From Gemmatimonadota bacterium (GTDB lineage Bacteria > 4572-55 > J002), in NCBI GenBank assembly GCA_003697105.1, contig RFFQ01000016.1, positions 1-38,348 on the forward strand: DNA of 38,348 nucleotides, in the 5' to 3' direction. The notes beneath the pieces were generated by a model. That model was not told the origin of the DNA. It worked only from the letters and a program-made list of their open reading frames with translations, and did not search any database. Each line of letters starts with the position of its first letter. Within the stretch, counting starts at the first letter, position 1. Both the position numbers and the translations under genes were made by a program. Below are positions 12,142 to 22,364 of the stretch, in pieces.

Positions 12142-13716
12142 TCACAACACATAAGACAACCGGATGAGTACTTGATGTTCGGATTGCACATCCGGGATGG
12201 CTTCTTCTTTTTTAATCAACAAGTTATAATCTAAACTGATATATTTAGAGAGGGTAACCCGGACCCGATTATCCCAATCGTAAACCCAAGTTTGGGTGTC
12301 GCTTTCCGGTAAGAGTAGGTCAAATTCCGTATTGAATTGCACCCGGCGGGCAATCCGGGAATCACCAATCATCAACATTTCTAATCCGGTTAAGGTTGAT
12401 TTTTGGAGGGGTTTTAGTTGGGTTTGGCTATCGTTTAGCAGGTAGGATTGGTGAACAAATGTTTGTCGTGCCCCGAATCCGCTGCGCAAATTGAGGTTTA
12501 AGCGGGCAGATTTGGCAATAATCCAGTTAAAGCCCACGCCTTCTTTGAGGGTGAGGGGGAAGAATGCCGGCGATAAGCGGACAGATTCCGCCGCGGTGTA
12601 AATATGGGTGGTATCTCCGCCGGTATTAAGCCGGTACACATCCCGAGGGCTGTCAAAATAGGCATTAGTTTCAAAAAATTTGCTATCTAGCGCCAAATTG
12701 AGGTAGGGTCCTACTTTTTCCCAAAAACGGTAGATATAAGTCGCTTTTAGTTCAATTCGATCTACATATTTGCGAATGGACTCTCCTTTTTCAAAGGAGA
12801 GTCCCTCGTCCAGTATGATGCGAACGAACGCATTATGTAAATCCGTAATATACCGTAACTGGTTGAACCATTGTGCCGTTAAGGTGAAATTATACTCTTT
12901 CCGTTGGGATTCCGTATTTTGGAAATAATTGAGAATAAAATTTCCGTTAATTTCGGAGCGAATTTTCCAATCTTCAATATTAATTTGCCGCGTACCTTCA
13001 TCCAAAATACCGAATCCGATGAAATTCTGATTTTCGTCATCCAATACGAGGGTATAACGTACTAACTCGCCGGGTAGTAGGCGCAATGTAGCAAAATTCC
13101 GTGTGGTATTAAAACTTTCCCCCGGTTTCACCACCTTGTACAACCCCGGTTTAAGCAACCAGGTAGTGAGTTCTTCCCCCAGCTCTTCATCTACGCCATA
13201 TCCCAAGCCATAATTTTCCAGATTTGATTGATAAAATAATTCGTATGATTCCTTGATAGGGGTGCGGGTTTCATCGATGACATTGATGACCAGTCCCGCC
13301 CAATCGGGTAAAATCAGGGAGGTATGCCCTTCTTCCACATCGACTGTTCGGGTTATCATCTGTTCAATGGTGCCGGAGCCGACCTTGACCTGATAGCGTC
13401 CCGGTTCAACCAAAACGGAGGTGCCGGTGCGGGCTTCTGCCACTAGGGTTTCATTGGTGTAAACCAGATAAACCGGTTCCGCCAACGAGGTGGTCATCGT
13501 CGGAACAAAAATCGCCCCTTTACCAATAGGTACTAACGTGGGGTCCATTTCGACTTGACGATAGGCGGGCGGGGCATCCCATGTATTTTCCGGTGAGGTT
13601 TGCCCGAGTACCTGTACAGGGAACATCAACAGCACCAAAAAGAGAAAAGCCGGAGATACACCGGCTTTTTGCCCCCCCATCTGCCCACAAGGGATTAAGT
13701 TAACTATGTGTTTCAT
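12142..13716 (-). CDS. Predicted outer-membrane beta-barrel protein, Mla operon partner
   Basis: I cannot place this 524-residue protein in a named family. A signal peptide is clear (hydrophobic core ~23-37, cleavage near 'QVLG|QT'). Residues ~60-220 look like two small beta-rich PEGA-like modules, for example 'VLVEPGRYQVKVGSG'. From ~235 onward alternating polar/hydrophobic strands separated by short turns suggest a barrel, and the chain ends 'RLSYVL', in keeping with outer-membrane barrels. ATG 13716 overlaps the upstream stop by 17 bases. An in-frame ATG at 13680 would give a shorter n-region and cannot be excluded. Position directly before mlaE suggests the outer-membrane end of a lipid pathway. 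That is inference from context. Confidence 0.7.
   Translation of the reverse strand: MKHIVNLIPCGQMGGQKAGVSPAFLFLVLLMFPVQVLGQTSPENTWDAPPAYRQVEMDPTLVPIGKGAIFVPTMTTSLAEPVYLVYTNETLVAEARTGTSVLVEPGRYQVKVGSGTIEQMITRTVDVEEGHTSLILPDWAGLVINVIDETRTPIKESYELFYQSNLENYGLGYGVDEELGEELTTWLLKPGLYKVVKPGESFNTTRNFATLRLLPGELVRYTLVLDDENQNFIGFGILDEGTRQINIEDWKIRSEINGNFILNYFQNTESQRKEYNFTLTAQWFNQLRYITDLHNAFVRIILDEGLSFEKGESIRKYVDRIELKATYIYRFWEKVGPYLNLALDSKFFETNAYFDSPRDVYRLNTGGDTTHIYTAAESVRLSPAFFPLTLKEGVGFNWIIAKSARLNLNLRSGFGARQTFVHQSYLLNDSQTQLKPLQKSTLTGLEMLMIGDSRIARRVQFNTEFDLLLPESDTQTWVYDWDNRVRVTLSKYISLDYNLLIKKEEAIPDVQSEHQVLIRLSYVL
13645..13669 (-). terminator. Terminator-like hairpin inside the barrel gene's signal-peptide codons
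   Basis: A perfect 9-base inverted repeat, AAAAGCCGG / CCGGCTTTT, has a 7-base loop. In the minus-strand transcript the 3' arm runs into TTTTCTCTTTTT, like an intrinsic terminator with an interrupted U-tract. It lies 15-25 codons into the coding sequence and could partly attenuate transcription into the barrel-mlaE-mlaF part of the operon. It could also be chance within signal-peptide codons. Confidence 0.4.
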
Positions 13717-15490
13717 CAGGCGATCCGGTCTCCGGGTTTTCCTTTTCTTCTTCCGCTTGTTTCTTCATCCATTCCAGAAATTGACGGCGTTGTTCAGGGG
13801 ATAGTTTCGCTTTTTTGCCTTGTTTTGCTGCCGCCTGTTTCTGCAGTTCCGCCATTTTACGTTTTTTCTCTTGGATTTTCTGCAAGCGTGCTTGCCGTAC
13901 CTCTTCGGGGATGGGGATCAATTTTTTGGGGGGCGTGAGGCGTTTCGGCGGTTTTTTAGCAGTTTCCGACTTTTTAGATGTCTCTGTTACCGCTTCTGGA
14001 GCAATAGCTTGAATTTCCACCGTTTTGGGTTCGTCACCGGGTGGGGGAGTCTCTTTTTTGCCCCCTTTCATCATCTCGGCGATCTCAGCCAAACGCTGTG
14101 GGTCGGGACCGTCACCAAAAGAGTGACCGCTGAGGTCGATTTCATCCGTGAATTCAAATTCATCATCGTCATACTCATCATACATATCATCATCATCGTA
14201 ATCCAGATAGTCCTCCGCCGGATCAATCTCGCTGGAATCCTCCATCTGGTGTTCCATTTCCGCCTGAGCAATCGATTCGGCAGCCTCAAGGTCAAAATCC
14301 TCATCGACCTCCCCGGTGTCGGGGGCGGAATCATCCCGAATAACCCCGGCGTGCTGGCGCACATGCGGGTCCAGCACCGAATAATCTTCGTCTGGGGAGC
14401 TATCCCCAAACGCGCTCAACCCGGGAATTTCGATCTCGATACTTTCCTCGTCACCGATAATATCGGGTTCATCTTTAAATTCCAACTCACCGGGCGGGGG
14501 AGTAGAGAGGGGAGAAAGCTCTTCTTTGGGTTCAACTTTAGGTGGGGGAGGTGTTACCGGCGCATCGCCATAATCGGGTTCATCTTCACGGAAATAAGAC
14601 ATGCCAGTATCGACTTCGACCTCTGCCGCCGGTTCTGGGGCGGGTGTCGCGGAGGCTGAAGCCGGCGAGGTGTTAAAATTGAGTTCCTGACTCTCTTGGA
14701 GTTCTTCAAAGGCGGTCACCTCTGTAAATTCCACATTTTGCCAAAAATCACGGGGAAAATAGAGATAGATCAGAATCAAACTTTTGGTATAATATTCGGA
14801 TTCCAGCATATCTTCGGGGTCGGTATTATCTACCTGACGGCGTTTCTGCCGCCATTCCGTGACCGACATCTGCTTAGTCTCCAATTTTTGCCGTTTATCT
14901 ACCATCCGCCGGGACTTAATTGTGCGTGGTTTTGAGGTATCCATGATGACGGAGATACCACTCCGTTCTTGAATAGCGGTGCTGATTTCACGGCTAAGTT
15001 GGGTAGGGTTGATCGCCAGTCGTTCCGCCCCACGATAGGTGTTCATGGGGATTTCAATACGCAGTTGAATATAGAGGGAATCAAAATAGGTCGTATCATC
15101 AAAGAGGCGTTCTGTTAGGAGTTTATCTTCTTTGATGGAGACATCTTTTTTCTTATCGAAGGCTAATTCTTTGAACATATTGGCGCTACACACCTCATCG
15201 ATAATATCGATGAGTTTATCGACCACGTTCTGTTCTTCAAAGGGTAGGGTTAAGATTTGGGTGGGGTCTTCGCCTTCCAGTTCTTGCGCTTTTTCTTCTA
15301 TTTTACTCTGACTTTCTTTTAATTTTTCCTGAAATTTTTGAGCATATTCCAATCGCTTGAGTTCGGAGGGTGACATCTTTTTAACTTTGGAATCTTCACC
15401 CTGTTTTTTTGATTTGGAGACCGATTTTGAGCGGTCGTCATCTGCCGACTGGCTCTCACCTTTGAGCAACTTATCCCACAATTTTCGCAT
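13700..15490 (-). CDS. Large acidic cytoplasmic protein of unknown function
   Basis: I do not recognise this 596-residue protein. It has no signal peptide or membrane segment. A charged coiled coil (~41-75) leads into a folded-looking region (~80-260). Then comes a long proline/acidic linker with an extreme Asp/Glu/Tyr stretch at ~417-450, and finally a basic, lysine/glutamine-rich helical tail (~520-590). The charge layout, acidic middle and basic end, suggests self-association or binding of a basic partner, but no catalytic motif is visible. GGGGG precedes ATG 15490 by 6 bases. It is the first gene after the promoter at 15588-15616 and overlaps the barrel gene by 17 bases, so it is expressed with the Mla genes. 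A cytoplasmic adaptor for that transporter is possible. Confidence 0.7.
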   Translation of the reverse strand: MRKLWDKLLKGESQSADDDRSKSVSKSKKQGEDSKVKKMSPSELKRLEYAQKFQEKLKESQSKIEEKAQELEGEDPTQILTLPFEEQNVVDKLIDIIDEVCSANMFKELAFDKKKDVSIKEDKLLTERLFDDTTYFDSLYIQLRIEIPMNTYRGAERLAINPTQLSREISTAIQERSGISVIMDTSKPRTIKSRRMVDKRQKLETKQMSVTEWRQKRRQVDNTDPEDMLESEYYTKSLILIYLYFPRDFWQNVEFTEVTAFEELQESQELNFNTSPASASATPAPEPAAEVEVDTGMSYFREDEPDYGDAPVTPPPPKVEPKEELSPLSTPPPGELEFKDEPDIIGDEESIEIEIPGLSAFGDSSPDEDYSVLDPHVRQHAGVIRDDSAPDTGEVDEDFDLEAAESIAQAEMEHQMEDSSEIDPAEDYLDYDDDDMYDEYDDDEFEFTDEIDLSGHSFGDGPDPQRLAEIAEMMKGGKKETPPPGDEPKTVEIQAIAPEAVTETSKKSETAKKPPKRLTPPKKLIPIPEEVRQARLQKIQEKKRKMAELQKQAAAKQGKKAKLSPEQRRQFLEWMKKQAEEEKENPETGSPDETHS

Positions 15491-15622: not shown

Positions 15623-17053
15623 TTAAATTTCTTCGATTCGCAGAATGTTAGTACCTTTTTTATCCCCAAATGGGAGACCCGCCGTGAGGACAAGCCGGTC
15701 ACCGTGGGAGATGATCTGTTCCGCCTTCAAACGTTCCACAATGTCATCAACGGCATCATCAATGTTGCTTTTAAATTCCGGCACTTGAAACCCCAAAACA
15801 CCCCAATAAAGCGCGGTGCGGAAGTACGCCTGTTCATTGAAGGTCATGGCAATAATGGGTTTCGGTGGACGGAACCGGGAAATTGTGCGTGCCATCGAGC
15901 CGCTTAACGTCAAGCAGACAATCGCTTTAGCATTAACTAAATCGGAAGCGTGACTAGTGGAATAGCCAATAGCGAGAGGTGTCGGATACACCATATCGGG
16001 TTTACGACGTTTTAGGTCCCAGCGGGGATCACTCTGTTTTTCGATAATGGTGATGATCCGATCCATCGTTTCCACCGCTTGAACCGGGAATTTGCCTGCC
16101 GCCGTCTCCCCAGAGAGCATCACGGCATCCGTCCCATCTAAGACCGCATTCGCCACATCGGCGGCTTCTGCTCGGGTGGGGCGTGGCGTGGTCATCATGG
16201 ACTCCAGCATTTGGGTTGCGGTGATCACCGGCTTACCCTTGCGGTTGCAAATGGCGATGATCTCCTTTTGAATGGGCGGTACTTCTTCCACAAACATTTC
16301 AACCCCTAAATCACCGCGGGCAATCATAATTCCATCCGCTAGGTCCGAGATGGCTTCAAATTCTTTAACGGCTTGAGGTTTTTCAATTTTAGCGATTACC
16401 GGCGTATTGTATCCCTGTTCGGCAATCATCCATTTGATGTGGCGGATATCATCCGGTCTTTGCACAAAGGAGAGTGCTACGTAATCCACACCTAACGTTA
16501 ATCCGAATTTCAAATCGATTTTATCTTTCGGGGTTAGCGCCTCAATAGAGACCGAACCGGGCAGATTTACCCCTTTGTTATCCTTGAGGACACCGCCAAA
16601 GACCACCTTACAATGGACATCCTGCCCATCTACATCTTCGACCGTTAGCCGCAATTTGCCATCATCGAGCAGGATCATCGCTCCCGGTTCCACATCTTGA
16701 TGAAGTTTCGGGTATGTCACCGAGACTTCATGGACATTTCCGATAATGTCGCGGGTGGTCAGACAAAAATCCGCGCCATTCTCCAACACAATTTCACCGG
16801 TTTCAAAGTGCTTCACGCGGATTTTTGGACCTTGCAGGTCTTGTAAGACCGCAATAGGGCGTTTGACTTCGGCAGAAACACGGCGCACCAGTTCAAATCG
16901 CCGGGCGTGATCCTCAGGTGTTCCATGCGAAAAATTAAAGCGGGCAACATCCATTCCGGCGTGTGCCAAGGCTAAAATATCCTCGTACGTATCCGTACTA
17001 GGACCTAACGTACAGACAATTTTCGTCCGGCGGCGGGTAAGTAACTGATCCAT
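15623..17053 (-). CDS. pyk: Pyruvate kinase
   Basis: This 476-residue enzyme converts phosphoenolpyruvate and ADP to pyruvate and ATP in glycolysis. Family residues are present: 'ARFNFSHG' (Arg38, Asn40, Ser42), catalytic Lys222 in 'AKIEKPQAV', and 'MIARGDLGVE' (243-252) for metal and substrate binding. Later come 'TATQMLESM' and 'DAVMLSGETAAGKFP', and a C-terminal regulatory domain ends the chain. Length is typical of bacterial type I/II enzymes, and there is no extra C-terminal PEP-utiliser domain. AGGAGG lies 7 bases before ATG 17053, whose A is also the last base of the upstream stop (TAATG). It is the last gene of the operon starting at 21037. Confidence 0.97.
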   Translation of the reverse strand: MDQLLTRRRTKIVCTLGPSTDTYEDILALAHAGMDVARFNFSHGTPEDHARRFELVRRVSAEVKRPIAVLQDLQGPKIRVKHFETGEIVLENGADFCLTTRDIIGNVHEVSVTYPKLHQDVEPGAMILLDDGKLRLTVEDVDGQDVHCKVVFGGVLKDNKGVNLPGSVSIEALTPKDKIDLKFGLTLGVDYVALSFVQRPDDIRHIKWMIAEQGYNTPVIAKIEKPQAVKEFEAISDLADGIMIARGDLGVEMFVEEVPPIQKEIIAICNRKGKPVITATQMLESMMTTPRPTRAEAADVANAVLDGTDAVMLSGETAAGKFPVQAVETMDRIITIIEKQSDPRWDLKRRKPDMVYPTPLAIGYSTSHASDLVNAKAIVCLTLSGSMARTISRFRPPKPIIAMTFNEQAYFRTALYWGVLGFQVPEFKSNIDDAVDDIVERLKAEQIISHGDRLVLTAGLPFGDKKGTNILRIEEI

Positions 17054-18246
17054 TACTGTTCCTCCTCAGCCAAGAATAAAGTAGTAGCCATCTGTTTTAG
17101 ATACCGTAAACCCTGAATGGCACGGCTGCCGTACCACGAAATCATTTCGCCGTCAATAAGAACGGTCGTTTTTTGTTCCACGGGGTAATGTGTCCGAAAT
17201 TCCGTGATGTCGGCGGAGGTAAAGGGATACGGTTCACTGCTAAATAAAATAAGGTCTGTGCTATCCAAAATCGGTTCGATCTCAATTTGGGGGTACCGCA
17301 CATCGGGGTCATGCCCAACCGTTTTCCAATGGATTAACTTCAGGCATTCACTGATGTATGTCTGCCGCGAAACGGTCATCCAAGGGTTTTTCCAAATTAA
17401 GTATAACACCTGTTGCGGGGGATAATTCACCTGCGTTGTGATGAGGTCTTGGTAGGTTTTTTCAAACTGGCGGCACAACGCACCGGCTTCTAGTTCTTTT
17501 CCGAAGATACTCCCGATTAATAGATACAAATCCAGATTATCGAGGGGGGTGTTGGGGTGGGTCACAATCACATTGGGGACAAATTCCGCAATTTGATCGA
17601 CCATCTCCTTCGGATTTTCATCAATGTTGACAATCACATGGGTTGGGTTTGTGATTTTCAGTTTGTGCGGATTGATCTTTTTTGTTCCACCGACACTTGG
17701 CACAGCATTGACTTGGTCTGCCGGATGGATGCAAAAGCTCGTTCGTGCCACGAGTTGGTCACCTAACCCTAGGTCAAACAGGAGTTCCGTGATGCTGGGG
17801 ACAAGGCAGGCAATTCGGGGCGGTTGTTCTGCTCTAGGGTGAACTGTACCGATGGCATCGGTACGATCCAGACCAAAATCAAACCACGATTCCGTGATCA
17901 CTTGTTGTCCGAATGTCGCTAGTGCTGGGAGGGGGTCTATTCCGGCCTCGAGGTCCGCTAACCGGTGTTGCAGTTGCTCTTTTAGAGCGGTCACAAATGG
18001 GCAGGAGGTTTCAGACTCCAATTGGTTGCACCGGTTGAAAGCTTTACGCCACAAGCTGGCACAACCTTTCATATTTTTTCGCTGATAATGGCAAGCACCC
18101 ACGGCCAATTGAATCAGTGCTTGCCAGAATTGGCGGCGGTTGCCGATCATCTGGTGCCACGGCTCTTCCCACTGTTCATGTGCCTCAAAATAGTCCCCTT
18201 GCCGGAAGTGTTTCCATCCGGCAAACAAATAATCTCGTTCCGTCAT
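17053..18246 (-). CDS. DUF309 domain fused to cytosolic metal/cobalamin-receptor-like domain
   Basis: This 397-residue protein has two unrelated parts. Residues 1-110 match DUF309, an all-helical domain with 'EAHEQWEEPW' (21-30) and 'QALIQLAVGACHY' (42-54). Residues ~143-397 resemble BtuF-type helical-backbone substrate receptors: 'IACLVPSITELLFDLGLGD', then 'VPSVGGTKKINPHKL', and a C-terminal lobe. There is no signal peptide, so the receptor domain is cytosolic rather than a transporter subunit and may bind a corrinoid or metal chelate as a sensor. An upstream in-frame start at 18285 is rejected because ATG 18246 overlaps the methyltransferase stop (ATGA). The stop overlaps pyk (TAATG). The fusion and its setting are unusual; function is unknown. 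Confidence 0.8.
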   Translation of the reverse strand: MTERDYLFAGWKHFRQGDYFEAHEQWEEPWHQMIGNRRQFWQALIQLAVGACHYQRKNMKGCASLWRKAFNRCNQLESETSCPFVTALKEQLQHRLADLEAGIDPLPALATFGQQVITESWFDFGLDRTDAIGTVHPRAEQPPRIACLVPSITELLFDLGLGDQLVARTSFCIHPADQVNAVPSVGGTKKINPHKLKITNPTHVIVNIDENPKEMVDQIAEFVPNVIVTHPNTPLDNLDLYLLIGSIFGKELEAGALCRQFEKTYQDLITTQVNYPPQQVLYLIWKNPWMTVSRQTYISECLKLIHWKTVGHDPDVRYPQIEIEPILDSTDLILFSSEPYPFTSADITEFRTHYPVEQKTTVLIDGEMISWYGSRAIQGLRYLKQMATTLFLAEEEQ

Positions 18247-19172
18247 GTGATTTCCAATGGGGTGAAAGGGTTTTGGTGCTGCCAACCGGTCAATCCGGTC
18301 TGGCGGTAGTGTTCTAACCGGCGAATGGTAAGCTCGCTATAAACGGGGTCAATATCGGTGGTAAAACACTGGCGATTCAGTCGTTCACAGGCAATTAGGG
18401 TGGTGCCGGCATGAGCAAAAAAGTCAATTACTCGTTCGTGTTCGCGGGAGCTGGCTAAAATGATTCGCTCCGTGGCTTGAAGTGGTTTTTGGGCATAACA
18501 CCCAGAGACATTCTCCTGCATTCGGTAGAACACCTGCTGAATATCTACCCAAACATTACTTGCTCGCAGGGTGTTTGATTTACTGCGTTCTAGGTTTTCG
18601 GTGCGCCTTCCTTTGATCGTTTTATAATAGCCGCGCAACACTTTCGGGATCGCGGTATATTGGGCGGTAAACGGAGGTTTCCCTTTGGTATAGTACAACA
18701 ATTCTTGCCGGACAGACATCCAATTGTGGGGGGTGCCAAATCCCCGTTGGTTGCGTAAGGTGATTAAGGAACGGCTGGTCAATTCTGGGAATTCGCGCAT
18801 CAGGAGCATAAATTCAGGTAGGGGTTGAAACCCATCCGTTTGATCGGCACCCATCCAGATGTAAAGGGCGGCGGGGTCGCTCAAGTACTTCAGGGTCAAT
18901 TGGACCCATTTTCGGCACCACTCGATAAAGTCAGCGGGGGGGCGTTCTTCAAAGGCGACCAGATTATAGGGTGGATCGTGGATAGCCAGTTGCGCGCGCT
19001 CGTCTCCCATTAACTGGCGGATATGCCCGGCATGGGTTGCATCCCCGCACCCCACACGATGCCCCCGTAACGGATCGACCCACACCTCACCGGGTTGGAG
19101 GCGGCAATATTCCAGCAATGTTTTACGAATTTCCGGGTGGCAGTCTAAACGGGGTAGCGGGGTGTGAATCAT
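18243..19172 (-). CDS. Orphan beta-class N4/N6 DNA methyltransferase
   Basis: This 309-residue enzyme should transfer a methyl group from S-adenosylmethionine to adenine N6 or cytosine N4 in DNA. The catalytic motif 'DPPY' (66-69) precedes a target-recognition region (~130-225). The AdoMet-binding elements come after it: 'QKPLQATERIILASS' (motif X, 228-242) and 'FFAHAGTT' (motif I, 251-258). That order defines the beta class. Residues 36-46 ('RGHRVGCGDAT') are the ordinary lead-in to this fold. No restriction endonuclease is nearby, so this is a solitary methyltransferase that may act in regulation or replication control. It starts 2 bases after the USP-EIIA stop and overlaps the next gene by 4 bases. 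Confidence 0.88.
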   Translation of the reverse strand: MIHTPLPRLDCHPEIRKTLLEYCRLQPGEVWVDPLRGHRVGCGDATHAGHIRQLMGDERAQLAIHDPPYNLVAFEERPPADFIEWCRKWVQLTLKYLSDPAALYIWMGADQTDGFQPLPEFMLLMREFPELTSRSLITLRNQRGFGTPHNWMSVRQELLYYTKGKPPFTAQYTAIPKVLRGYYKTIKGRRTENLERSKSNTLRASNVWVDIQQVFYRMQENVSGCYAQKPLQATERIILASSREHERVIDFFAHAGTTLIACERLNRQCFTTDIDPVYSELTIRRLEHYRQTGLTGWQHQNPFTPLEIT

Positions 19173-19174
19173 TA

Positions 19175-20467
19175 TTATGAAGCCGAGTTTGACTGATCGC
19201 GGAGAAGTGCCATTACTTCAACGGGCGTTTGACAATCCAACAACATTCGGGTCATAAAGGTATCTTGCATTAACCGGCCAATCGCCGCCAAAACGGGCAG
19301 GTACAAACGATAATTATTTTTGGGAGTCAATAATAAGAAGATAAAATAAACCGGGTTGCCATTGGGTGAGTCGAAATCAAGCCCTTCGGGGCAAATTCCC
19401 AAACATCCAATCACACCTTCCAGATTCTCAATGGCGGCATGAGGAATCGCTAAACCCCGATTGGTTGCTGTACTTCTTTCTTGTTCACGTTGCAATGCCG
19501 TGTGGAGGACTTCATCACGTTGGGATACCGGTATTTGTTTTTCCTCAACAAGGGTATCTACCAAGATCGTGATCGCTTCCCATTTATCCTTCGGGTGCAG
19601 GTTCAAGCGGATGGTACGTTCCCAGAAGACTCTTCCTAAATTGATTTTTCCATCATTATGGGCACGCACCATAAGCACCGAACAACTGGCTTGATTGGCA
19701 ATCTGATCGGGGATAGAACCACTTAAATATCGTCCGGTTCGCCAATCGTTGGACGCGCCTAGAATAACAAGATCAACGTGTTCCGTTTCTTCGACAATCG
19801 CTGGAATAAGCTGGTCTGCTTTTTTGATATGAATGGGCATATTGACATTGATCATTTCCAGTTGCATCTGCGTATCTTCATACAATTGTTCTGCAAATAA
19901 GTCCAATTCCGGGTCTTCTGGGAGGGTCTCTGGTACATGGGCAATCCGTAGAATATGGGCTTCCGCACCCCACTGGCGGGCAAAAATATCACCAATTTGA
20001 ATACCCAATAATGAGTGTACCCCTCCGGAGGTTAAGATTAATATTCGACGAATGGATTTATTTCCGCGGGGCTTCAAAATAAGGGTATCGAGTTCTTCAT
20101 TACGGGCAATTTCCCCGCCGGTCGAATTCGAGATTTCGGATTCAGCAATACTACGCCGCCAACCCATTAGCAACGTTTTACAATGGTAGTTCGCCGCTAC
20201 TTCGAGCACCGCTTCCATCAAACTGGTTTTGTAGATCAAATGCGGTGTTGCAGAGGCTCCCCCTAATTTTGCTGTTTCCGCCGCATGAAACAACAACCGC
20301 CCAATCCGCAATGTATCCACCGAGGGTTGTTGAGCCACATGGAGTAAGCGCAAAGAACCACCCTTTTCCGCGGCTAAGGTTGCGGCAAAGTGCACCAGAA
20401 TATCTTCCGTATCGGGATTGGCAACCGGCACAAGAATGTTACAATCGGTATCAAAGTGGTGGGACAT
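19175..20467 (-). CDS. USP-USP-EIIA(PTS) fusion protein
   Basis: This is a 430-residue soluble protein. Two universal-stress-protein domains (about 9-135 and 140-270) are followed by a PTS EIIA domain of the fructose/PtsN type (about 285-430). The second USP domain retains the nucleotide-loop pattern 'GASN...SGSIPDQI...SVLMVR'; the first is more divergent. The EIIA phospho-acceptor is His343 in 'GLAIPHA', and 'LAAIGRLMQD' is the typical C-terminal helix. USP plus EIIA tails occur on some cation or amino-acid transporters; here no membrane part is attached, so it may be a detached sensor tail. EIIA would take phosphate ultimately derived from PEP, the substrate of pyruvate kinase in the same operon. 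No EI or HPr gene is in the window. Confidence 0.88.
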   Translation of the reverse strand: MSHHFDTDCNILVPVANPDTEDILVHFAATLAAEKGGSLRLLHVAQQPSVDTLRIGRLLFHAAETAKLGGASATPHLIYKTSLMEAVLEVAANYHCKTLLMGWRRSIAESEISNSTGGEIARNEELDTLILKPRGNKSIRRILILTSGGVHSLLGIQIGDIFARQWGAEAHILRIAHVPETLPEDPELDLFAEQLYEDTQMQLEMINVNMPIHIKKADQLIPAIVEETEHVDLVILGASNDWRTGRYLSGSIPDQIANQASCSVLMVRAHNDGKINLGRVFWERTIRLNLHPKDKWEAITILVDTLVEEKQIPVSQRDEVLHTALQREQERSTATNRGLAIPHAAIENLEGVIGCLGICPEGLDFDSPNGNPVYFIFLLLTPKNNYRLYLPVLAAIGRLMQDTFMTRMLLDCQTPVEVMALLRDQSNSAS

Positions 20468-20476
20468 GGGTGTGCC

Positions 20477-21037
20477 TCAACTAGAAGACGTAAATAAGTC
20501 ATGCCATTCCAAAAAGTGCTGGTATTGACGGTCTCCATACGTTTTAACCGTTGCTTTCACGTGTTCCACAGACCGTTCATACCATATTTTACGCGGATGT
20601 TTGCCAAAAAAAAGGTCGGCGTAGCAAATAATCTTTTCTTCAAGACTGTGCGGGATCATATCTCGGGCGGGGAGAGGTAGTTGGTTCAAAATAATTTCTT
20701 TCTCGGTCAATCCAACACCGATATGGGTTTCTGCGACAACGGCATGGCGGGCTAACCCTTCGGCTTCCAATATCTTCCGTCCTTCTGAAATATGACAAAT
20801 ATAGGGTAATTCTCCCTGACAACCGATTTCCGGTGCTTTTACTTTAATCACACCAATGTCGTGAAGCATGGCGGCTTCCTCAATAAACTGAAGTTGGTCT
20901 TCGGTTAACTTCAACCGTTTGCCGATGGCCAGGGCTTTTGCTGTTACGAGCGTCACATGGGGAATGTAAACCCCATACAGCCGGGAATCCGGCGGAATGT
21001 AGCGGTGAATGATTTCAAAATAATTGACTTTTTTCAT
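20477..21037 (-). CDS. HD-domain phosphohydrolase (HDIG-like)
   Basis: This 186-residue predicted metal-dependent phosphohydrolase has its likely metal ligands visible: His27 ('IPHV'), His59-Asp60 ('MLHDIG'), His82, His98, His105 ('ETHIGVG') and Asp141 ('YADLFFG'). This is the single-domain HDIG layout seen in small nucleotide phosphohydrolases; the substrate is unknown. A weak GGA site precedes ATG 21037 by 8 bases. That ATG overlaps the TGA of a short upstream frame (ATGA), and an intrinsic terminator sits only 15 bases before it. It is the first conventional gene of the operon that ends with pyk, 9 bases before the USP-EIIA gene. Confidence 0.85.
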   Translation of the reverse strand: MKKVNYFEIIHRYIPPDSRLYGVYIPHVTLVTAKALAIGKRLKLTEDQLQFIEEAAMLHDIGVIKVKAPEIGCQGELPYICHISEGRKILEAEGLARHAVVAETHIGVGLTEKEIILNQLPLPARDMIPHSLEEKIICYADLFFGKHPRKIWYERSVEHVKATVKTYGDRQYQHFLEWHDLFTSSS

Positions 21038-21159
21038 GACAACATTCCAATAAAAAAAGCAACCCCAGCGGATTGCCTCTCGGAAAGAGATATGTCACTG
21101 ATGATGTCAAATGAATGGTTTCCCCCCGTGATAGTTTCATAATTGCGTGTTTGTGCCAT
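21034..21159 (-). CDS. Possible 41-residue leader or small protein overlapping the HD gene
   Basis: An open frame from ATG 21159 gives 41 residues (45 from ATG 21171). GAAGG lies 5 bases before ATG 21159. The stop TGA overlaps the ATG of the HD gene in an ATGA arrangement, the same coupling used elsewhere in this window. The product begins 'MAQTRNYETITGGN' and ends with the hydrophobic 'AGVAFFIGMLS'; I recognise no family. Against a real protein: the intrinsic terminator at 21052-21076 lies inside it, and the frame could be chance. It may instead be a leader peptide whose translation controls the terminator. Confidence 0.4.
   Translation of the reverse strand: MAQTRNYETITGGNHSFDIISDISLSERQSAGVAFFIGMLS
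21052..21076 (-). terminator. Intrinsic terminator in the leader of the HD-to-pyk operon (attenuator-like)
   Basis: Read on the minus strand, GCAATCC (21076-21070), loop GCTG and GGGTTGC (21065-21059) form a 7-pair stem with one G-U pair, followed directly by seven T (21058-21052). It ends 15 bases before ATG 21037 and downstream of the only strong promoter. It would therefore stop transcripts before the operon unless prevented. Confidence 0.65.
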
Positions 21160-21207
21160 GCAAACCTTCATTTTTAGAAAACAAAATGGCAGAATTAATA
21201 TAAGCCG

Positions 21208-21236
21208 ATTTTACCAAAATTCCGGATCCGTGTCAA
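21208..21236 (-). promoter_or_regulatory. Near-consensus promoter of the HD-USP/EIIA-methyltransferase-DUF309-pyk operon
   Basis: On the minus strand, TTGACA (21236-21231), a 17-base spacer and TAAAAT (21213-21208). Transcription should begin near 21201, giving a leader of about 164 bases before the HD gene. I compared the leader by memory with the c-di-GMP-I, c-di-AMP (ydaO), fluoride and cobalamin riboswitch patterns and found no match. Confidence 0.75.
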
Positions 21237-21299
21237 TAGAGAAATCCGGTAACGCCGCGAACCGACGGGACGTCTGTGTGAGGTTCACAGGATTTTACC

Positions 21300-21383: not shown

Positions 21384-22364
21384 ATGCGGGCGTTAGTCAC
21401 CGGAGCAAACGGTTTTATCGGCAGCCATCTGTGCGAACGGCTTTTGGAACGAAATTATACGGTTCGCTGTTTGGTGCGTCCAACAAGTGACCTGAAATGG
21501 ATTTACCGGTTACCGGTAGAATATGTCAACGGCAGTGTGGAAGATTTGGATTCACTCCGGCGAGCAATTCAGGATGTGGATTACGTCTTTCATGGGGCGG
21601 CAGTCACCAAGGCAAAAACCCCAGAAACCTATTACCGGGTAAATACCAAAGGAGCAGAACACATCTTTCAGGTCTGTTATGAGACCCGTTCTGCCCTCCG
21701 GAAATGTATTTTTGTGAGCAGTCTGGCGGCGGTGGGTCCAAGCCCTTCCAAAGAACCGATCACCGAAGAAATGCCCTGCCATCCGATTACCGATTATGGG
21801 CGGAGCAAATTAGAAGCAGAACAACTGGCACACCAGTTTATGCCGCATTTTCCGTTGACAATCATCCGACCGCCAGCCGTGTACGGACCGCGGGATAAAG
21901 ATACATTGCTTTTTTTTAAGCTGGCAAAATTAGGGATTACCCCACGATTCCAAAAAACGGAGCAATACCTCAGTTTGGCGTATGTGGAAGATGTCGTCGA
22001 TGGTATGATCCGCGCCGCCGAACATCCCGCCGCCAGTGGTAAAACATACTTCCTAAGCCACGAAGAAATAATTAGTTGGACAGATTTGGCAACAATCATT
22101 CGCCGCGTCATGGGCAAACGAAAAGGAATCTCGGTCAAAATACCGGAAATCCTGCCGAAGTGGGTCGCCCAAACATCAATGGGACTTGCTAAATTTACCG
22201 ATAAGCCGGCACTGTTAAACGAACAAAAAATCAATGAGATAAAACAACCGTACTGGACGGTAAGCCCCCAAAAAGCGATAGCTGATTTCGGTTTTCGTCC
22301 CCGTTCCATTGAAGAAGGCTGCCGATTAACCGTGCAGTGGTATCGAAATGAAAAATGGCTCTGA
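21384..22364 (+). CDS. NAD-dependent epimerase/dehydratase (extended SDR)
   Basis: This is a 326-residue Rossmann-fold oxidoreductase. The NAD(P) site is 'TGANGFIG' (6-13). The catalytic set is Ser112/Ser113 ('VSSLAAVG'), Tyr138 and Lys142 ('YGRSK'), and 'RPPAVYGPRD' follows at about 178. It resembles the NAD-dependent epimerase/dehydratase and dihydroflavonol-reductase-like proteins that act on nucleotide sugars or other ketones; the substrate cannot be told from sequence. The ribosome site is poor (GGA only 2 bases from ATG), so translation may be weak or leaderless-like. It is a single-gene transcript between its own promoter and a strong bidirectional terminator. Confidence 0.9.
   Translation: MRALVTGANGFIGSHLCERLLERNYTVRCLVRPTSDLKWIYRLPVEYVNGSVEDLDSLRRAIQDVDYVFHGAAVTKAKTPETYYRVNTKGAEHIFQVCYETRSALRKCIFVSSLAAVGPSPSKEPITEEMPCHPITDYGRSKLEAEQLAHQFMPHFPLTIIRPPAVYGPRDKDTLLFFKLAKLGITPRFQKTEQYLSLAYVEDVVDGMIRAAEHPAASGKTYFLSHEEIISWTDLATIIRRVMGKRKGISVKIPEILPKWVAQTSMGLAKFTDKPALLNEQKINEIKQPYWTVSPQKAIADFGFRPRSIEEGCRLTVQWYRNEKWL

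Follow-up and report, generated by a model that had tools for sequence, protein, structure and literature searches.

The locus raises the question of whether an intrinsic terminator placed just before the first gene of an operon is a switch for that operon or has some other role. The window (the whole stretch of DNA analyzed, 38,348 nucleotides [nt] of contig RFFQ01000016.1 from a Gemmatimonadota bacterium) contains a five-gene operon on the minus strand. A first-pass annotation of the sequence had proposed that the operon is preceded by an attenuator-like leader, with a strong promoter, a terminator close to the first start codon, and an embedded small open frame. We examined each of these elements, the frequency of such arrangements in the same genome, and the ways in which the terminator might be controlled.

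The first gene of the operon (20477 to 21037) encodes a 186-amino-acid (aa) HD-domain hydrolase, recognized by a domain match and by its homologues. The alignments with these homologues (identities of up to 57%) begin at residue 1, which supports the start codon of the HD gene. The second gene (19175 to 20467) encodes a 430-aa protein with Usp-type and PTS EIIA-type (EIIA_2) domains, assigned by domain match and an IPHA active-site-like motif; the third (18243 to 19172) encodes an N6_N4-type DNA methyltransferase, assigned by domain match and a DPPY motif. Domain matches also identified the products of the last two genes, a DUF309 domain fused to a TroA/BtuF-like helical-backbone metal receptor domain (17053 to 18246) and a pyruvate kinase (15623 to 17053). 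The junctions between the five genes are, in order, +9, +2, −4, and −1 nt, a tight spacing that bears out the proposed operon, and a 132-nt gap separates the pyruvate kinase gene from the next gene. Pyruvate kinase gave a single match, with no second copy found in the genome, which is 96.9% complete. The operon looks lineage-specific because none of the four companion genes was found beside the HD gene in 81 related loci. Two further observations concern the gene content. The DUF309 and TroA/BtuF-like metal receptor fusion is an unusual pairing within a pyruvate kinase operon, and the two large minus-strand genes directly downstream of the operon (596 and 524 aa; window 12142 to 15490) have no Pfam or NCBIfam match.

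The predicted sigma-70-type promoter (21208 to 21236, minus strand), recognized by its sequence pattern, consists of a −35 hexamer TTGACA (21236 to 21231), a 17-nt spacer, and a −10 hexamer TAAAAT (21213 to 21208) that carries a TGn extension. In a promoter scan it matched the consensus at 11 of 12 positions and was the joint best site within the 7.5 kb scanned. Base rates for the genome were computed on 2.0 Mb (48% of the genome), sampled as stretches, and the counts given here and below are approximate because they rely on genes predicted with a simple script based on codon usage. The pattern TTGACA-N17-TANNNT had 134 matches in 1.99 Mb (48%) of the genome. Coding sequence makes up 88% of this sample, yet just 8 of the matches were within genes and 120 were directly before a same-strand gene. 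The pattern thus represents a genuine class of promoter in this genome, to which the site at 21236 belongs. From the position of the −10 hexamer, transcription is predicted to start at A21201, which would give a leader of 164 nt (21038 to 21201, minus strand) ending at the ATG of the HD gene at 21037. The strong promoter and 164-nt leader of the first-pass annotation are thereby upheld.

An inverted repeat, CCGGAT-N16-ATCCGG (window 21222 to 21249), flanks the −35 hexamer, and a palindrome, CGGATCCG, lies in the promoter spacer. There were nine CCGGAT/ATCCGG pairs with spacings of 14 to 18 in the 2.0-Mb sample, and the one at the promoter was the sole intergenic site. We do not claim the repeat as an operator, since about one pair per spacing is expected by chance in the sample.

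Downstream of the promoter lies an intrinsic terminator (21052 to 21081, minus strand) with a 12-bp stem. Its sequence, GAGAGGCAATCC-GCTG-GGGTTGCTTTTT (21081 to 21054), comprises a 5′ arm (21081 to 21070), a loop (21069 to 21066), and a 3′ arm (21065 to 21054), and the seven T's occupy 21058 to 21052. As had been stated, the T-tract ends 15 nt before the ATG of the HD gene (14 nt lie between the two). The hairpin has a folding energy of −15.4 kcal/mol and a z-score of −3.84, and none of 200 shuffled sequences was equally stable. Thus, the promoter and the terminator are both beyond chance, and the small frame, discussed below, is not. There is no T-tract on the plus strand at the hairpin, and therefore the terminator would act in one direction only. 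Nor is the hairpin the terminator of an upstream gene, because the neighboring gene is divergent (it begins at 21384 on the plus strand); no protein gene on the minus strand that the hairpin could terminate lies within 1.5 kb. A scanner based on a loose terminator consensus missed the hairpin, apparently because the maximal stem pairs GAGAG with the U-tract and leaves too few T's behind. The terminator sequence was absent from the viral contigs searched.

Terminators in leaders are rare in this organism. Among 163 promoter-defined leaders of up to 500 nt (median, 61 nt), three had a terminator: the HD leader and those in the sampled stretches L175 and L215. Divergent regions in the 2.0-Mb sample gave a similar picture, with 3 of 124 carrying a terminator no more than 60 nt from the start of a gene; one of these is the HD leader, another is a thiamine pyrophosphate (TPP) riboswitch, and the third is apparently a gene-calling error inside a CRP-like gene. 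Gene 3′ ends accounted for 140 of the 185 intergenic terminators in the sample. The leader in L175 (G000 contig 60) is the TPP riboswitch (RF00059, 73.8 bits; L175:18815-18911), and its terminator lies about 30 nt before a gene resembling that of a TonB-dependent receptor (a CarboxypepD_reg-like N terminus plus a plug), a layout that suggests a thiamine-regulated outer-membrane importer. This leader serves as a positive control for the promoter-leader-terminator-gene architecture. It resembles the HD leader in having a promoter, a leader, and a terminator shortly before the start codon, but it has a recognized aptamer, whereas the HD leader matches no family. The leader in L215 (L215:15782-15920, G000 contig 97) is a candidate attenuator, with a TTGACA-N17-TACTTT promoter followed by a TAAGGAATT...AATTCCTTA hairpin and a T-tract. 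It precedes a small lipoprotein-like gene, and its hairpin is weaker than that of the HD leader.

An unrelated feature was seen on the minus strand at L102:8040-8135 (G000 contig 4), where an odd tRNA-like gene of about 110 nt with a CCA end lies just before an apparent tRNA-Trp gene. It was missed by ARAGORN, and its Rfam match to tRNA-Sec is weak (24.8 bits, E = 0.011, below the gathering score). A divergent tRNA-Sec is one possible identity, and some other unusual tRNA is another.

We consider it rather probable that the HD leader is a default-off conditional transcription attenuator, with a gate that would be either a ribosome or a ligand or protein. RNA polymerase would start near 21201 and, after some 150 nt of leader, would stop by default at the U-tract (21058 to 21052). 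If the hairpin were prevented from forming, polymerase would go on into the genes for the HD hydrolase, the Usp-EIIA protein, the methyltransferase, the DUF309-metal receptor protein, and pyruvate kinase. The arrangement of promoter, leader, and terminator is itself of a known kind and is a common regulatory layout.

Folding calculations are consistent with a default-off state. In the finished leader, the 5′ arm of the terminator pairs with the 3′ arm at a mean of 0.89 (89%), and the terminator is thus the predicted default fold of the leader in the absence of any partner. Before the 3′ arm emerges, about half of the 5′ arm is predicted to be held by upstream bases, mainly 21191 to 21183. These bases form a candidate antiterminator strand, UGCC-A-UUUU (21183 to 21191, minus strand), complementary to GAGAGGCA in the 5′ arm of the terminator (21081 to 21074); at −6.9 kcal/mol the pairing is weak, and we regard it as speculative. 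When the leader is folded only as far as 21074, its minimum-energy structure is multibranched and contains this helix. However, the best antiterminator fold (an 8-bp helix to 21191 to 21183, with the UGCC/GGCA part forced) was 7.7 kcal/mol worse than the terminator fold, and the antiterminator helix would therefore persist only with the help of an external factor.

The gate could be a ribosome. The 41-codon frame from ATG 21159 (21034 to 21159, minus strand) runs through the whole terminator, and its TGA stop sits in the ATGA at 21037 to 21034, overlapping the HD start; an alternative start at ATG 21171 would give 45 aa (126 to 138 bp for the two starts). The frame of 41 to 45 codons ending in an ATGA overlap therefore exists as originally described. 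If attenuation were gated by ribosomes, as in pyrBI or bmrB, formation of the hairpin would depend on translation of the frame, and the ATGA would pass ribosomes to the HD gene. Consistent with this, an AAGG ribosome site lies 5 nt before ATG 21159; at −3.9 kcal/mol it is of ordinary strength (34% of first genes have weaker sites). The length of the frame also resembles that of the 135-bp pyrBI leader gene (PMC4824070) and of bmrB, at 162 nt (PMC4191407). But the codon usage of the frame argues against translation: its log-odds score, −5.3, equals the mean for noncoding open frames (−5.3) and falls at the 1.6th percentile of real genes (4.9 ± 4.2 for the comparison set of real gene pieces). 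Its length is also within chance: dinucleotide shuffling produced ATG frames of 41 codons or longer in 5.9% of cases for the same register and in 18% for any register. A different register also has a 41-codon frame that spans this hairpin. The translation, MAQTRNYETITGGNHSFDIISDISLSERQSAGVAFFIGMLS, has no regulatory codon run and matched no family in Pfam. In addition, the ribosome site of the HD gene itself is unremarkable, and so translational coupling is not needed for HD translation. A ribosome on the 41-codon frame is thus a possible gate by analogy, but a doubtful one. Of the first-pass proposal, the attenuator-like leader has gained support from the rarity of leader terminators in this genome and from the TPP riboswitch among them, and translation of the small frame as a leader peptide is not supported.

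Alternatively, a ligand or protein could hold the 5′ strand (21191 to 21183) against the 5′ arm of the terminator. The leader would then be an undescribed riboswitch or a protein-binding leader in which the helix between UGCC-A-UUUU and GAGAGGCA closes a multibranched 5′ domain and, when bound, blocks the terminator. The fold predicted before the 3′ arm emerges is of this multibranched form, and the TPP riboswitch with its terminator in the same layout provides a precedent in this genome. Against it, the switch helix is short, there is no second copy in the genome, and the upstream 121 to 128 nt of the leader are no stabler than shuffled sequences (z-scores of −0.22 to −0.34). The known TPP leader of the same genome reaches a z-score of only −1.52, and therefore the z-score of the fold does not exclude an aptamer in the HD leader. 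On this evidence from modeling, we hold a ligand or protein gate to be tentative, no stronger a candidate than a ribosome.

Searches for families and relatives bear on the attenuator as a whole. Against the Rfam 15 covariance models, the leader had no match at the gathering score and no plausible family at E values up to 10; the best weak match, to an Aggregatibacter small RNA (E = 3.1), is at chance level. Because no Rfam family was found, the leader falls outside the described riboswitch classes, in agreement with the earlier failure to match it to one. The leader has no second copy in the genome, where the remaining matches were short (14 to 32 bases) and attributable to chance. In 59 other genomes no homologue was found; the matches there were short as well, at about 27 to 33 bases. 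No leader homologue was found before the HD gene in 79 usable relative loci. A terminator-like hairpin was present within 200 nt of the HD gene in 3 of these 79. The hairpin in one of the relatives (L012, 57% identical) ends about 27 nt before the HD start, but it comes after the stop codon of an upstream gene. The only other genome of the phylum compared, that of the same-class relative G001, is without HD and pyruvate kinase genes. The comparison with relatives thus gave nothing positive, but the genomes compared included no close relative, so a function is not refuted by this outcome. It is improbable, although conceivable, that the leader represents an undescribed riboswitch or antitermination class confined to this little-sampled phylum and controlling the HD/Usp-EIIA/methyltransferase/pyruvate kinase operon, which would tie glycolytic end-flux to a signal read by RNA.

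The main rival to an attenuator is that the promoter and terminator bound an independent small RNA gene of about 150 nt. The operon would then be expressed by steady read-through of a leaky terminator or from a different promoter, and nothing would be switched. The promoter-terminator unit is complete and of small-RNA size, and such an RNA need not fold into an aptamer. However, no Rfam small RNA matched at the gathering level (the Aggregatibacter match being chance), the terminator is very close to the HD start codon, and the promoter scan picked up no candidate site between the terminator and the HD gene. We regard a separate small RNA with leaky termination as unlikely. It is far less likely still that the real start of the operon is inside or below the hairpin, so that the hairpin is not in the mRNA: the start at 21201 is a predicted one, but the few nucleotides between the U-tract and the ATG contain no site picked up by the promoter scan, and the 21236 promoter is not surpassed in the region scanned.

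We therefore return to the attenuator as the preferred reading. If the terminator is conditional, an RNA switch would set the expression of the only pyruvate kinase detected in the genome, along with that of a PTS-like sensor and an HD hydrolase. The phylum has hardly any genomes, and the HD leader is for now a single well-placed example of a common layout.

Apart from the TPP riboswitch leader of the same genome, the closest known systems are two attenuators in which the terminator lies within a leader gene. In the pyrBI operon of Escherichia coli, the terminator lies in the pyrL leader gene; it is not repressed at normal UTP, since the ribosome does not repress terminators located within the first 100 bp (PMC4824070). 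In the HD leader the U-tract ends 107 nt into the small frame. The HD leader is like the pyrBI attenuator in that its terminator is inside a frame of similar length (126 to 138 bp versus 135 bp) just before the first gene, but the HD operon has no pyrimidine genes and its frame lacks a coding signature. The second system is the ribosome-mediated attenuator bmrB-bmrCD of Bacillus subtilis, in which the terminator is within the coding region of bmrB; bmrB was shown to be translated, and a terminator, an antiterminator, and an anti-antiterminator were predicted (PMC4191407). Although the HD operon does not encode a drug pump and its leader has only a weak predicted antiterminator, both systems have a small frame containing an intrinsic terminator upstream of the genes that are, or in the HD operon would be, controlled.
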